From contig JAUIFO010000003.1 in NCBI GenBank assembly GCA_030430385.1, positions 186,001 through 250,000 on the forward strand: DNA of 64,000 bases. Reading direction: 5' to 3'. Of this stretch, positions 4,108-7,205 are shown piece by piece. Source of the DNA: Bacteroidia bacterium. GTDB taxonomy: Bacteria; Bacteroidota; Bacteroidia; Flavobacteriales; Flavobacteriaceae. The notes below the pieces were generated by a model that saw only the letters and a list, made by a program, of their open reading frames with translations, ran no database searches and was not told the DNA's origin. The translations under genes were made by a program, and so were the position numbers. Numbering within the stretch: the stretch's first letter is position 1; every line of letters starts with the position of its first letter.

Positions 4108-5340
4108 ATGATTTTAGAAATGAAAGTTCCTTCTCCAGGAGAATCCATTACAGAAGTTGAAATAGCAGAATGGTTAGTTCAAGATGGAGATTATGTTGAA
4201 AAAGATCAAGCTATTGCTGAAGTTGATAGTGACAAAGCTACACTCGAACTTCCAGCTGAAGCTAGCGGAACTATAACTCTTAAAGCCGAAGAAGGTGATG
4301 CTGTTGAAGTTGGCGCTGTAGTCTGTTTGATAGACACAAGTGCTGCAAAACCTGATGCTTCGACAAGCTCAGCAACCGATTCTAAAGAAGAGCAGTCAGA
4401 AGCGCCAAAACAAGAAAATGTCACTTCGAGCGCAGTCGAGAAGTCTAGCTCAAATAAAACATACGCTACTGGAACAGCAAGTCCTGCAGCCAAGAAAATA
4501 TTAGACGAAAAAGGTATTGATGCTGCTTCAGTATCTGGAACTGGAAAAGATGGAAGAATCACCAAAGAAGATGCTGTTAATGCAACGCCTTCTATGGGAA
4601 CTCCAACAGGAGGAAATCGCGGAAGTTCAAGAAGTAAAATGTCAATGTTACGTCGTAAAGTAGCTGAACGTTTAGTAGAAGCTAAAAATACTACAGCGAT
4701 GTTAACAACTTTTAATGAAGTTGATATGACTCCTATTTTCGATTTGAGAAAACAATACAAAGAAGACTTTAAAGCTAAGCATGGTGTGAGTCTTGGATTT
4801 ATGAGTTTCTTTACTCTTGCTGTGGTTAGAGCACTTAAAATGTATCCAGCAGTAAATTCAATGATTGATGGGAAAGAAATGATTTCTTACGACTTCTGTG
4901 ACATTAGTATTGCAGTATCTGGACCTAAAGGGTTAATGGTTCCTGTGATTAGAAACGCAGAAAACTTAAGCTTTAGAGGTGTAGAATCTGAAGTAAAACG
5001 ATTGGCACTTCGCGCTCGTGATGGACAAATTACTGTTGATGAAATGACAGGAGGAACCTTCACTATCTCTAATGGTGGTGTTTTTGGAAGTATGTTATCT
5101 ACACCAATTATCAATCCTCCTCAAAGTGGTATTCTAGGCATGCACAATATTGTTGAACGTCCAGTTGCTGTTGATGGTAAAGTAGAAATTAGACCTATTA
5201 TGTATGTGGCCTTATCTTATGACCATAGAATTATTGATGGTAAGGAATCGGTTGGATTTTTAGTTGCTGTTAAAGAAGCTCTTGAAAATCCTATAGAACT
5301 ATTAATGGATAATGACATCAAGAAAGCTCTTGAGATGTAA
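4108..5340 (+). CDS. sucB: 2-oxoglutarate dehydrogenase E2 (dihydrolipoyl succinyltransferase)
   Basis: 410 residues. Transfers the succinyl group from E1 to CoA. Domains in order: lipoyl domain (about 1-78, lipoyl Lys43 in DSDKA), flexible linker (about 80-117), peripheral-subunit-binding domain (about 118-158, ASPAAKKIL), second linker, and catalytic acyltransferase core (about 175-410) with the SYDHRIIDG motif (His373, Asp377). Odd point: the first linker is encoded by two sequences that look like the interspersed REP-type repeats seen elsewhere in this window (4357-4373 and 4419-4446), read in frame as Ser/Thr/Ala-rich spacer. Downstream of sucA in one operon; a strong terminator follows at 5362. 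Confidence 0.97.
4357..4373 (+). repeat. REP-like repeat fragment inside sucB
   Basis: GCTTCGACAAGCTCAGC reads as the short palindromic intergenic repeat common in flavobacterial genomes (CTTCGACAAGCTCAG), here in frame in the E2 linker, encoding ASTSSA. Confidence 0.5.
4419..4446 (+). repeat. REP-like palindromic repeat inside sucB
   Basis: The segment contains CACTTCGAGCGCAGTCGAG followed by AAGT, an inverted repeat with ACTTCGA..TCGAGAAGT arms. It matches the flavobacterial REP pattern and is read in frame as linker [10 protein letters not shown]. Confidence 0.6.
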
Positions 5341-5361
5341 ACACATTTTATAAGTATATAG

Positions 5362-5400
5362 AAAAAGCGCAGTCCGAAGAAGATGGATTGCGCTTTTTTT
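5362..5400. terminator. Bidirectional intrinsic terminator after sucB
   Basis: Stem AAAAAGCGCAGTCC / GGATTGCGCTTTTT with an 8-base loop and seven T on the plus side. It ends the sucAB operon and, read leftward, can end the small-ORF transcript coming from 5535. Confidence 0.85.
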
Positions 5401-5424
5401 GTTAAAAAAATAACTAACTAATAA

Positions 5425-5535
5425 CTAGAAAAAATTAACAAGAATATTGACTGTAATAATAACAACAGCACTAATAATTAAGCCTGTTATAAATATTTTG
5501 TTAGTAAGACTTGGTTTATCGTTCATTGCATCCAT
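5425..5535 (-). CDS. Putative 36-residue single-span membrane peptide
   Basis: ATG 5535-5533 to TAG 5427-5425 encodes MDAMNDKPSLTNKIF followed by a hydrophobic stretch (about residues 15-36: ITGLIISAVVIITV..ILVNFF) with few charges. It reads as one transmembrane helix with a short charged N-terminus. It lies downstream of the leftmost palindrome-controlled promoter (operator 5700-5719) and before a terminator at 5362-5400, so it has its own transcription unit. There is no Shine-Dalgarno, as usual here. No homologue is recognised, and a chance short frame cannot be excluded. Confidence 0.4.
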   Translation of the reverse strand: MDAMNDKPSLTNKIFITGLIISAVVIITVNILVNFF

Positions 5536-5562
5536 TTTAATTCGATTTTAATGTTTTTAAAT

Positions 5563-5594
5563 AAAGCCCTGGGACAAAAATGTCCCAGAACTTT
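5563..5594 (-). ncRNA. Leader hairpin or weak terminator of small-transcript unit 1
   Basis: Perfect 8-bp stem CTGGGACA (5569-5576) / TGTCCCAG (5581-5588) with an AAAA loop, extended by AAAG/CTTT across a 2x2 internal loop. On the minus strand it is followed only by CTTTATTT, a poor T-tract. It could be an attenuator in the leader of the 36-residue ORF, or the end of a short RNA starting near 5665. Position relative to the promoter parallels the terminators of units 2 and 3. Confidence 0.5.
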
Positions 5595-5670
5595 ACACCC
5601 TATAACTAATTAACTTGTTAATTAAAGTAATTAGTCGTTATTCATAATCCCTAATACAAATAACTTGGAG

Positions 5671-5719
5671 TAAAATTCGTATAATAATCAAAGCAGCACA
5701 ATACGTAGAACTACGTATT
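5671..5719 (-). promoter_or_regulatory. Promoter and NarL-type operator of small-transcript unit 1
   Basis: Inverted heptamers TACGTAG (5702-5708) and CTACGTA (5711-5717) separated by 2 bases; the 20-bp block AATACGTAGAACTACGTATT spans 5700-5719. On the minus strand TTG (5701-5699) abuts the operator as -33 box. After exactly 20 bases comes GAATTTTA (5678-5671), a weak -7 box. The same spacing recurs in units 2 and 3. Confidence 0.65.
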
Positions 5720-5784
5720 TTTACAAATAACCATTTTAAGTTACTGATTATCAATACTATAAAACTTGTTAAAATTATGAGGTC

Positions 5785-5857
5785 AAAAAAAAAGGCTCTA
5801 AATTGTTACACTTAGAGCCTTTATCCTTTAATTTTTCAAAAGGAAATTGATTAATAG
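5785..5857 (-). ncRNA. Putative small RNA, unit 2
   Basis: About 73 nt on the minus strand. The start is estimated a few bases past a -7 box at 5870-5863; the end is at a strong intrinsic terminator (11-bp stem AAAGGCTCTAA / TTAGAGCCTTT at 5791-5801 and 5812-5822) followed by nine T. A second small hairpin CCTTT..AAAGG lies before it. There is no ORF longer than about 10 codons. The first bases (minus strand AATGCTATTAAT) are shared with unit 3. Inferred from promoter plus terminator; no family recognised. Confidence 0.6.
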
Positions 5858-5862
5858 CATTA

Positions 5863-5910
5863 CAAACTTCGTCTATAATATGATACCAATCAATACGTAG
5901 TTCTACGTAT
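5863..5910 (-). promoter_or_regulatory. Promoter and NarL-type operator of unit 2
   Basis: TACGTAG (5894-5900), two bases TT, CTACGTA (5903-5909). Minus-strand -33 TTG is 5893-5891 and -7 GAAGTTTG is 5870-5863, 20 bases apart. The operator directly abuts the -33 element, the position expected for an activator. Confidence 0.7.
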
Positions 5911-5947
5911 ATTTTCAATTTTTCAAATTCAATATGCTTAAAATCAA

Positions 5948-6018
5948 TAAAAAAAGCCTTGAATCAATGAGAATTTCAAGGCTTTATGTAAAATAACTCT
6001 TCCCTAAAGAATTAATAG
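5948..6018 (-). ncRNA. Putative small RNA, unit 3
   Basis: About 71 nt on the minus strand, from a start estimated near 6018 to an intrinsic terminator with stem AAAGCCTTGAA / TTCAAGGCTTT (5953-5963, 5975-5985) and a T-rich tail. It shares the 5' block AATGCTATTAAT with unit 2 (plus-strand 6011-6022 versus 5850-5861) but differs afterwards, as expected for sibling small RNAs. No meaningful ORF. Confidence 0.6.
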
Positions 6019-6023
6019 CATTG

Positions 6024-6072
6024 CAAAATTGAATGATTTTAGAAGAGTAAACAATACGTAGAACTACGTATT
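6024..6072 (-). promoter_or_regulatory. Promoter and NarL-type operator of unit 3
   Basis: AATACGTAGAACTACGTATT at 6053-6072 with heptamers 6055-6061 and 6064-6070. Minus-strand -33 TTG is 6054-6052 and -7 CAATTTTG is 6031-6024, spacing 20. The operator contains the TAG stop codon (6066-6064) of the response regulator gene. Confidence 0.7.
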
Positions 6073-6699
6073 TTTTGACAAATAATCTTCAAATTCTTTA
6101 GCATATAAAATAATACTATTGGCTTTAGAAGATAGCTTTAGTTTCGATCTAATGTTACTTTTATGCTTTTCAACGGTTCGGTCTGAACAAAACAAAATAT
6201 CGGCAATTTCTTTGGCGGTTTTATTTTGAGCCGTGAGTTGTAAAACCTTCATTTCGGTTTCTGTTAAGGTTTGTAATTCTTTTGGCACTTTCTGAATTTC
6301 AAGATACTCAAGTAATTCAGGGCTAAAATAAGTGCGATCTTCAAGAATATTGGCAATACAATGTTCAACTTCTTCAATAGCAAATTCTTTAAGAATATAA
6401 CCATAAATTCCTAAAGACTTCGCCTGATTGTAGATCACTTCACTCTTTTCAAAAGTGATAATTATGATTTTAGTTGATAAGCCTTCTTCTTTACATTTTT
6501 CAGCCACTTGCAATCCAGTTAAAAAAGGCATTTGTATATCTAATATGGCAATATCTGGCTGATGTGCTTTAATTAAGGTAAATGCTTCCTTACCATTTTT
6601 TGCACTTGCAATTACATTATAGGACTTTTCAATAAGAAAGTCTTTAAGGCCTTTTAAGATTAATGGATGATCGTCGGCAATGACAATAGATGGTGTCAT
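6064..6699 (-). CDS. NarL/FixJ-family response regulator
   Basis: 211 residues. Receiver domain 1-120: acidic pair Asp9-Asp10, phospho-acceptor Asp54 in AILDIQMP, Thr82, and Lys104 in YILKE; all receiver signature residues are present. LuxR-type HTH about 144-190 (LTETEMKVLQL through RTVEKHKSNIRSKL). It is a DNA-binding two-component regulator; no histidine kinase gene is next to it in the window. It is probably co-transcribed with the aspartyl protease gene upstream. Its stop codon lies inside the first of three identical palindromic sites, each in front of a short leftward transcript, which makes those sites its likely targets (inference). Confidence 0.9.
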   Translation of the reverse strand: MTPSIVIADDHPLILKGLKDFLIEKSYNVIASAKNGKEAFTLIKAHQPDIAILDIQMPFLTGLQVAEKCKEEGLSTKIIIITFEKSEVIYNQAKSLGIYGYILKEFAIEEVEHCIANILEDRTYFSPELLEYLEIQKVPKELQTLTETEMKVLQLTAQNKTAKEIADILFCSDRTVEKHKSNIRSKLKLSSKANSIILYAKEFEDYLSKNT

Positions 6700-6764
6700 G
6701 AATAATTAGTTGAGGGATTCGATTTAAATATAAGTACATTTTACAATATATAAGAACTAATACC

Positions 6765-7205
6765 TTACATTTTTAAATACAAGTATTTCTTCTCGTAGTC
6801 AATAACAGCTTTTCCTTTTTTTAATACATCTGCACCAATAATACCATCTACAGGTTTCGCATCATGATTAGTTAATGCAGTGTTTACATGTGTTAAATTA
6901 AAAAGAATTAAAGCGACTCTATTCTTTTTCCATTTTCCAATTTTAAGCGTATTGCGTTTCGAAATTTGGGTAAACATATTTGTCGCTCCAGCTCCAGCAG
7001 CCTTAATATCGCTGTCTGTGGCTTCCAGTTTGAAGGTGTCAATTCCTTCAAAACCAACACAAGAACTTGAGGCTCCTGTGTCTAAAATAAATAAGCCTTT
7101 CTGCCCATTAATCTTGGCAATTATTGCAAAATGATTGGTTCTAGTAAGGTGTAATTTGATCTTTGTATACCCTTTGTTAAGCAGAAAATCTTTCAAACTA
7201 TTCAT
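6765..7205 (-). CDS. Retropepsin-like aspartyl protease family protein
   Basis: 146 residues from the ATG at 7205 (MNSLKDFLLNKGYTKI). It has the single-domain retroviral-type aspartic protease layout: catalytic FILDTGASSSCVG at about residues 48-60 and a second hydrophobic flap/dimer segment VDGIIGADVL near the C-terminus. No signal peptide, so cytoplasmic or unknown location. One Asp-Thr-Gly per chain implies a dimeric active site. Longer starts at 7223 (ATG) and 7241 (TTG) exist, but the latter falls within 15 bases of the divergent tatD start. The substrate is unknown. Upstream of the response regulator in the same direction (65 bp gap). Confidence 0.75.
   Translation of the reverse strand: MNSLKDFLLNKGYTKIKLHLTRTNHFAIIAKINGQKGLFILDTGASSSCVGFEGIDTFKLEATDSDIKAAGAGATNMFTQISKRNTLKIGKWKKNRVALILFNLTHVNTALTNHDAKPVDGIIGADVLKKGKAVIDYEKKYLYLKM

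Follow-up and report, generated by a model that had tools for sequence, protein, structure and literature searches.

A NarL-type response regulator beside predicted tandem sibling small RNAs in Flavobacteriaceae, with proposed feedback on its own mRNA

We wondered what is transcribed from three identical palindromes that stand directly beside a response regulator gene in a member of the Flavobacteriaceae, and whether the regulator and the transcripts act on each other. The window, by which we mean the whole stretch of 64,000 nt that was analysed (contig JAUIFO010000003.1, positions 186,001 to 250,000), contains TACGTAG-N2-CTACGTA three times in exact form, at 5702-5717, 5894-5909 and 6055-6070. 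The original prediction had named these three copies and no other in the window, and a palindrome scan bore this out: no further copy is present at up to two mismatches, and at three mismatches one extra match appears (26615) with 1.10 expected by chance. A search of the whole source genome likewise returned these three exact copies and no more. The adjoining gene (6064..6699, minus strand) encodes a NarL/FixJ-type response regulator of 211 aa. Its placement in the NarL family, which had been proposed from the letters, was confirmed by Pfam matches to the REC domain (Response_reg, 5.4e-26) and to GerE (4.2e-17), and the nearest solved sequences found by phmmer are the response regulators 4zmr and 4hye, followed by DesR, VraR and NarL. 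REC domains rely for their phosphorylation chemistry on an acidic pocket, a phospho-acceptor Asp, a Thr/Ser and a Lys, all of which are present by eye (ADDHP, AILDIQMP, IIITF, YILKE). NarL recognizes a pair of inverted heptamers with 2-base spacing. The 7-2-7 palindrome has the form expected for such inverted heptamers and is thus a predicted site for a NarL-type protein.

The genes around the palindromes are ordered as follows. On the plus strand lie two genes which we take, from their translations, to be sucA and sucB; on the minus strand come an aspartyl-protease-like gene and the regulator and then, in this order, operator, sRNA A, operator, sRNA B, operator, leader and a gene for a small membrane protein. 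The first operator (TACGTAGAACTACGTA; 6055..6070, no strand) overlaps the 3’ end of the regulator gene, the stop codon TAG of which lies inside the palindrome. Operators of units B and C occupy 5894..5909 and 5702..5717 (no strand). In minus-strand reading, TTG comes after each copy, then 20 bases, a box of the form nAnnTTT(G/A) and a hairpin, an arrangement that had been predicted and that held when the bases were counted. The boxes are CAATTTTG in unit A (6024..6031, minus strand, its offset from the operator being 23, the value found in relatives), GAAGTTTG in unit B (5863..5870, minus strand) and GAATTTTA in unit C (5671..5678, minus strand). The -7 consensus of Bacteroidota and its place at -12 to -5 are documented by a transcript map of Flavobacterium psychrophilum (PMC9723704). 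With the box set at -12 to -5, the predicted +1 falls on base 36 past the operator, which in the sRNA units is the G of GCTATTAAT; such a block stands at this one offset in 44 of 55 units. Because the sRNA 5’ block and the start codon of a small ORF described below fall at the same offset, two unrelated kinds of product agree on one +1.

Which products do the three promoters have? Unit A would give sRNA A (5949..6019, minus strand), about 71 nt long with its +1 at 6019, the 5’ end GCUAUUAAU and a terminator; unit B would give sRNA B (5785..5858, minus strand), about 74 nt long with its +1 at 5858, the 5’ end GCUAUUAAUCAAUU and a terminator. Both match the covariance model described below (E=6.3e-5 and E=3.0e-7, respectively), of whose training set they are members. 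That these two units are terminated siblings of about 70 nt with a common 5’ block agrees with the prediction: the terminators lie 71 and 74 nt after the +1 and GCTATTAAT is common to both. The expectation of three small-transcript units was correct for these two. The unit at 5702 has another leader (5559..5666, minus strand), containing a terminator-like hairpin, and then a conserved ORF of 36 codons (5425..5535, minus strand), the product of which (MDAMNDKPSLTNKIFITGLIISAVVIITVNILVNFF) is a one-helix membrane protein as judged by eye, with relatives that have one invariant Asn. Unit C is the promoter of this small membrane protein gene rather than of an sRNA. Pfam offered no family for the 36-aa protein of the window, the one version tested. 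We find it very hard to credit that the palindromes are a mobile repeat or the decayed remains of a coding repeat. The blocks between operators can be read by eye as short peptides in one frame (YVVLRI...CNAIN), and some solo sites elsewhere have common leaders; however, the constant promoter geometry, the noncoding conservation with terminators and the conserved neighbours speak against such an origin of the units.

A covariance search of relatives had been suggested as a check on the sRNAs. The model matched 96 of 299 family genomes at E<=0.001, with the training units included in the count. For the alignment, 51 units were cut, 13 were left out (six with another 5’ start, unit C of the window among them, and seven that were short, odd or near-duplicate) and one was added, giving 39. 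In these 39 the first nine nt are nearly invariant and are followed by the terminator hairpin, in which 13 of 14 pairs show compensatory change, though covariation in terminators can have other causes. The first nine nucleotides are largely free of pairing (mean unpaired probability 0.83 across 241 units). A scan of public genome contigs yielded 86 stretches with both the operator and the sRNA 5’ end, labelled mostly Psychroserpens, Gelidibacter, Bizionia, Lacinutrix, Olleya, Winogradskyella, Mangrovimonas, Xanthomarina and other names belonging to the Flavobacteriaceae. Two of the stretches come from metagenome-assembled genomes labelled Algicola (Gammaproteobacteria according to NCBI). Their regulators are 78 and 82% identical to that of the window, which makes the label doubtful.

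Rfam contains nothing that reaches its gathering score at the sRNA units of ten loci searched at E<=0.5. Apart from tRNAs all matches there were sub-threshold, including Thr_leader in L052 (28.6 against 55 bits, opposite strand, near the array). In the window, positions 5300-6800 gave sub-threshold matches at E<=1, none of them over the two sRNA units; the leader of unit C overlaps sub-threshold matches to RsaA (28.5 against 50 bits) and mir-2996. BLASTN against plasmids found no match. Using Pfam, neither Hfq (PF17209; found in 5 of 14 controls) nor CsrA (PF02599; found in 3 of 14) was detected in the source genome, and a role of the CsrA or Hfq type was set aside on that ground. As separate observations, the array of genome G168 consists of five very similar operator-sRNA units spaced at 145-147 bp, and three places in the source genome (C20:257870, C23:108602 and C25:62633) hold candidate RNAs that start with GCTATTAATCAAT and have no operator; a hairpin and a T-run follow each of them by eye, and the one on C25 overlaps the start of a long ORF.

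The operator itself is spread across the family. A search of family genomes for the 16-mer, likewise proposed at the outset, found it in exact form in 51 of 299 genomes, one of them with as many as 15 copies; the reversed pattern occurs in 2 of 299. Tandem operators are spaced at about 140-190 bp in many arrays and about 270-350 bp in others. The statistics on operators in the units of relatives, the box offset among them, describe loci that were found by operator or model, with a filter that demands an operator-like form (241 of 275 units passed). Related species do not provide independent counts across genomes. Among solo exact operators, the centre dinucleotide equals that of the same genome’s array in 40 of 43 fetched cases; a TAnnTT(T/C)(G/A) box stands at exactly offset 23 in 24 of the 43, with no other offset occurring more than four times. 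These 43 sites leave out the loci of a paralogous regulator (L051, L067, L074) and 11 sites in five genomes whose array was not fetched. Further sites gave seven matches of the dinucleotide (G130, 7 of 7) and five mismatches (two in G059, one each in G085, G122 and G197).

Several observations concern operators away from the arrays. Near the paralogous regulator (L051, L067, L074) lie operators centred on GT/AC; in L051 and L067 a long ORF with a kinase-like end precedes this regulator, and secreted proteins of about 2000 aa are encoded nearby. At nine further loci in several genomes, solo operators stand before a similar leader with a TAnnTTCG-like box, GTTTAAC and an imperfect GATAT hairpin. 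The genes behind these leaders are unrelated, some methylase- or nuclease-like by eye; the arrangement is reminiscent of mobile cassettes. Finally, at eight loci the same RNA 5’ end comes after a different palindrome, TACTCAA(A/T)TTGAGTA with a TTG behind it, and the promoter distance is unchanged. This palindrome probably marks a second regulator that feeds the same RNA family.

Does the operator belong to the adjacent regulator? The co-occurrence of array and regulator had been named as a further check. Using a threshold of E<=1.2e-56 for regulator orthologues, 82 of the 299 genomes have both the regulator and an sRNA model match, 39 have the regulator only, 14 have a model match without a high-scoring regulator and 164 have neither (p=2e-28). 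Of 103 regulator loci, 84 include sucB and 102 include the gene for the aspartyl protease. As these 103 loci were found via the operator or the sRNA model, the operator is there by construction, and its presence in 100 of 100 loci found in this way was excluded as evidence. We therefore rely on sampling that started from the regulator, which avoids the circularity of starting from the operator. This set comprises 50 loci, the 30 best matches and 20 picked from the 39 regulator-only genomes. TACG-N8-CGTA adjoins the regulator in 50 of 50 (47 of 47 in the 47 loci scored in a first pass), no more than 149 nt downstream of the end of the regulator match, and no second copy occurs elsewhere in these loci (about 126 kb). 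For background, 305 blocks of 500 nt were taken from loci that had been fetched on other grounds, and 3 of them have such a site. That another protein binds the palindrome and that its closeness to the regulator is synteny only appears improbable to us: exact sites do also occur in genomes in which no array was seen, but the site adjoins the regulator in all 50 regulator-first loci across operator variants and two gene orders, and a paralogous kinase-regulator pair (L051, L067) has like sites with another centre dinucleotide.

Loci that lack the sRNA point to what the operator may have controlled earlier. In 26 regulator loci without a canonical sRNA unit (a few, L492, L499, L507 and L509, have one that is odd or distant, and L492 and L509 come from genomes with a model match), a one-helix short ORF like that of unit C lies behind the operator in 23 by eye. 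Its start codon falls exactly at the predicted +1 in 19 of the 26 (ATG in 16, GTG in 3), so that the small membrane protein would be made from a leaderless mRNA. Directly before the regulator, 24 of the 26 have the apparent 3’ end of a histidine kinase gene; the two kinases tested by Pfam contain HisKA_3 and HATPase_c domains together with TPR matches, and the four kinase-preceded loci that were laid out all still adjoin sucB. The order kinase, regulator, operator and membrane protein in loci that lack the sRNA makes this module look ancestral and the sRNA array derived, and the presence of the operator beside the regulator even where the sRNA is missing suggests that the operator is the older of the two. 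The direction of this change is read from the distribution across loci.

In the arrays, a one-helix short ORF follows the last unit in 24 of 30 by eye; 22 of these ORFs align, at 28-43 aa, and share one invariant Asn in the helix. This constancy could mean that the regulator activates the units while the short RNAs are attenuated leaders or by-products, the membrane protein being what matters and the repeats being decaying duplicates. The protein is indeed found behind the operator in 23 of the 26 loci without sRNA and behind the last unit in 24 of the 30 arrays, and in L052 it begins only about 10 nt past the terminator. Such an origin is nevertheless unlikely, given that the 39 aligned units, chosen without those that have another 5’ end, hardly vary in their first nine nt, that 13 of 14 terminator pairs show compensatory change, that an array can hold up to five consecutive intact units (G168) and that the sRNA 5’ end matches the regulator leader.

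This last match led us to propose that the sRNAs act on the mRNA of their own regulator. From an initial 108 rows, five were dropped for identity, length or leader, leaving 103 regulator leaders of 60 nt. TAATAGC, the complement of the sRNA 5’ end, occurs in 49 of the 103 (200 shuffles: mean 1.6, maximum 5) and ends 2-25 nt upstream of the regulator ATG. TCCCT, which in the RNA is UCCCU and complements the GGGA loop of the sRNA, occurs in 53 (shuffles: mean 8.0, maximum 16), and TAATAGC together with CCCT in 30 (mean 0.39, maximum 3). The leader of Psychroserpens jangbogonensis, for one, reads UCCCU...UAAUAGC. In 444 other leaders of the same loci the counts are one for TAATAGC, one for TCCCT, 12 for CCCT and none for TAATAGC with CCCT. 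Regulator-first leaders carry TAATAGC in 12 of 24 cases where the sRNA is present and in 0 of 23 where it is absent (p=7.8e-5); the 23 include a few of the loci with an odd or distant unit mentioned above (L492, L499, L507, L509), L492 and L509 belonging to model-match genomes. Duplexes of the sRNA with its own regulator leader have a median of -11.5 kcal/mol, compared to -7.5 kcal/mol with other leaders (n=100 and 400).

TAATAGC is absent from 54 of the 103 leaders. Of the 30 leaders with both blocks, 17 have them in an order that one sRNA could cover and 13 in reverse order. Against shuffles the duplex energies are weak (35% of leaders beat 95% of shuffles, and the reversed sRNA reaches 25%), and covariation of the pairing past nt 9 is slight (6 of 32 against 1.25 expected). 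The window itself has the leader GAATCCCTCAACTAATTATTC before the ATG (6700..6720, minus strand), its version of the proposed target, with UCCCU and without UAAUAGC, and the predicted sRNA-leader duplex is weak at -7.9 kcal/mol. We also considered that GCUAUUAAU is a general 5’ stability or translation element and that the leader match has another cause, for instance an RNA-binding protein or another RNA. We hold this to be a possible but doubtful account. Curlin mRNAs and other transcripts, some of them without an operator, start with GCTATTAATCAAT, 13 of 30 leaders have the two blocks in the order that one sRNA could not cover, and the pairing predicted in the window is weak. On the other hand, the leaders hold the reverse complement (49 of 103) and hardly ever the same-strand GCTATTA (1 of 103), and no TAATAGC is found in the 23 leaders where the sRNA is missing. 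In about half of the leaders, the mostly unpaired 5’ end GCUAUUAAU would pair near the regulator start codon, and the UCCCU held by many leaders would pair with the GGGA loop. Complementarity to the regulator mRNA suggests that the sRNAs lower regulator synthesis in a negative feedback. Judged on sequence, we rate this feedback step as slightly better than an even prospect for the group and as lower for the strain of the window.

Targets beyond the regulator were sought through TTAATAGC close before an ATG. The source genome has 67 such sites against 29 for the reversed pattern, and of two genomes of the same genus G045 has 87 against 64 and G267 77 against 45. A general target set was nonetheless rejected as a candidate: 90 loci inspected, a subset of the sites, held eight ORF starts of the kind sought and no clear theme. 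Among the matches listed in a search with a bipartite pattern, many were sRNA genes on the opposite strand.

Having seen exact operators apart from arrays, we asked which genes they precede, and a recurrent answer is curli. Curlin genes lie at three solo operator loci, and their mRNAs are predicted to start with the sRNA 5’ tag. Measured to the curlin ATG, the operator start lies 208-210 bp upstream in G282, G091 and G294 and at two genes of G068; at two curlin genes of G171 the distances are 197 and 219 bp. The sRNA-type 5’ tag is present at the curlin loci of all five genomes. In G171, G068 and G294 the operator lies upstream of curlin genes that are followed by csgE-, csgF- and csgG-like genes, and Pfam identified the curlin repeats along with CsgE, CsgF and CsgG in G171, the repeats in G068 and CsgE in G294. 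One CsgE-like protein (L437:11029-12222) has an N-terminal CsgC-like Pfam match below the cutoff (23.7 versus 25 bits). Curlin repeats are uncommon, occurring in 9 of 80 genomes searched: 6 of 63 with an sRNA model match, the 63 being part of the 96 model-match genomes, and 3 of 17 without. No operator was found upstream of the curlin gene of G195, of one curlin gene of G171 and, within the 312 bases available there, of one of G294. Three curlin genomes have no model match. In G063, two curlin-like genes are preceded by operators of the TACGTG type, at -210 and -224, and the other curlin-like genes seen have none; the regulator locus of G063 is also of the TACGTG type. G076 has a regulator orthologue with no operator there, and G033 lacks both an operator and, at 1e-40, a regulator match. 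No curlin repeat was found in the source genome, where the corresponding place after a glutamine-synthetase-like gene holds a variant of the operator, the 5’ tag and a short ORF that has a curlin-like signal peptide and no repeats. This ORF is probably a curli remnant. The idea that the regulator runs an sRNA regulon is supported by comparison as far as two sibling sRNAs behind its operator are concerned, and falls short in that the regulon is likely wider, with curli operons and other genes.

Taken together, we propose the following scheme. In phosphorylated, dimeric form the regulator would occupy TACGTAG-N2-CTACGTA at positions -51 to -36. It would activate three transcripts on its own strand, the two sibling sRNAs of about 70 nt and the mRNA of the 36-aa membrane protein. 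We infer this activation step from the conserved architecture. Curli operons would likewise be driven by the regulator, with the operator some 210 bp upstream of the curlin ATG, as would other genes whose sites keep the promoter spacing of the sRNA units. The reading we prefer, and consider reasonably probable on present sequence evidence, is that this NarL-type protein activates the sibling sRNAs, the gene of the small membrane protein and, in genomes that have them, the curli genes, and that the sRNAs feed back on it. In one large part of the Flavobacteriaceae the operator would have multiplied and come to drive sRNAs; by analogy, we guess that the small membrane protein may act back on the kinase. 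A broader version remains tentative: sRNAs and curlin mRNAs, which begin with GCUAUUAAU and often GCUAUUAAUCAAU, could form a 5’-tagged regulon whose total output, coding and noncoding, represses the activator through the complement in its mRNA, the loop having arisen in one part of the Flavobacteriaceae from an older kinase-regulator module with the leaderless one-helix membrane protein gene as its local target.

How does this scheme relate to known systems? GacA, a NarL/FixJ-type regulator, activates the small RNAs RsmY and RsmZ, which titrate CsrA/RsmA. The type of regulator and the activation of small RNAs are the same here; the systems differ in that no CsrA was found in the source genome. 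LuxO of Vibrio is subject to feedback from its sRNAs; it is of the NtrC type and works with sigma-54, its qrr genes are scattered and Hfq is used, all unlike the flavobacterial array. LuxO-Qrr1-5 resembles our locus in having multiple sibling sRNAs under one response regulator. OmrA and OmrB of Enterobacterales (see also PMC12692685) are likewise sibling sRNAs with related 5’ ends under a response regulator, OmpR. They also act on the mRNA of their own regulator and are tied to curli control. In contrast, their regulator is of the OmpR type and they depend on Hfq, whereas here the regulator is of the NarL type and no Hfq was found; up to five tandem units and a small membrane protein further set the flavobacterial locus apart. 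As in the OmrA/B and Qrr loops, the sRNAs here are siblings that share a 5’ seed and stand behind the operator of the regulator, with activation predicted. Because no Hfq was found, the array may work like these loops but is not classed with those Hfq systems.

Two further comparisons concern curli and Bacteroidota. CsgD of E. coli (see also PMC3521004) is also a LuxR/NarL-type curli regulator that is itself an sRNA target. Unlike CsgD, the regulator described here has REC motifs that look complete by eye, uses another operator and is encoded apart from csg genes, the curli operons that we saw lying elsewhere. The FopS sRNAs of Bacteroides thetaiotaomicron are multicopy, about 65-70 nt long and consist of a single-stranded 5’ seed and a terminator (PMC11697453), and our units share the character of short multicopy Bacteroidota sRNAs with such a seed and terminator. 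FopS sRNAs have canonical promoters with a possible unnamed regulator and repress PUL mRNAs, whereas our units form a tandem array next to the gene of a regulator, and it is this regulator’s mRNA that they appear to target. No FopS match was obtained in the ten loci (E<=0.5) or in window positions 5300-6800 (E<=1), and Rfam 15 may not hold a FopS model. A response regulator with sibling sRNAs and feedback is therefore a known kind of system, of which OmpR-OmrA/B and LuxO-Qrr are examples. What appears to be new is a system of this kind in Bacteroidota, its layout as a tandem array next to its regulator, a leaderless membrane protein gene as the likely ancestor and the absence of detected Hfq and CsrA; searches of open-licence PMC texts brought up no account of this system.

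For the Flavobacteriaceae, these data describe a family-wide pairing of regulator and sRNAs in Bacteroidota, where the FopS study leaves the regulator of its sRNAs unnamed (PMC11697453). We propose a curli activator for flavobacteria; according to PMC3521004, csgD was absent from Bacteroidetes genera other than Spirosoma. We also propose the one-helix membrane protein as an old target of a kinase-regulator pair. The loci would thus offer an evolutionary series that can be read by genome comparison, the operator and the membrane protein coming first and the sRNA array later.
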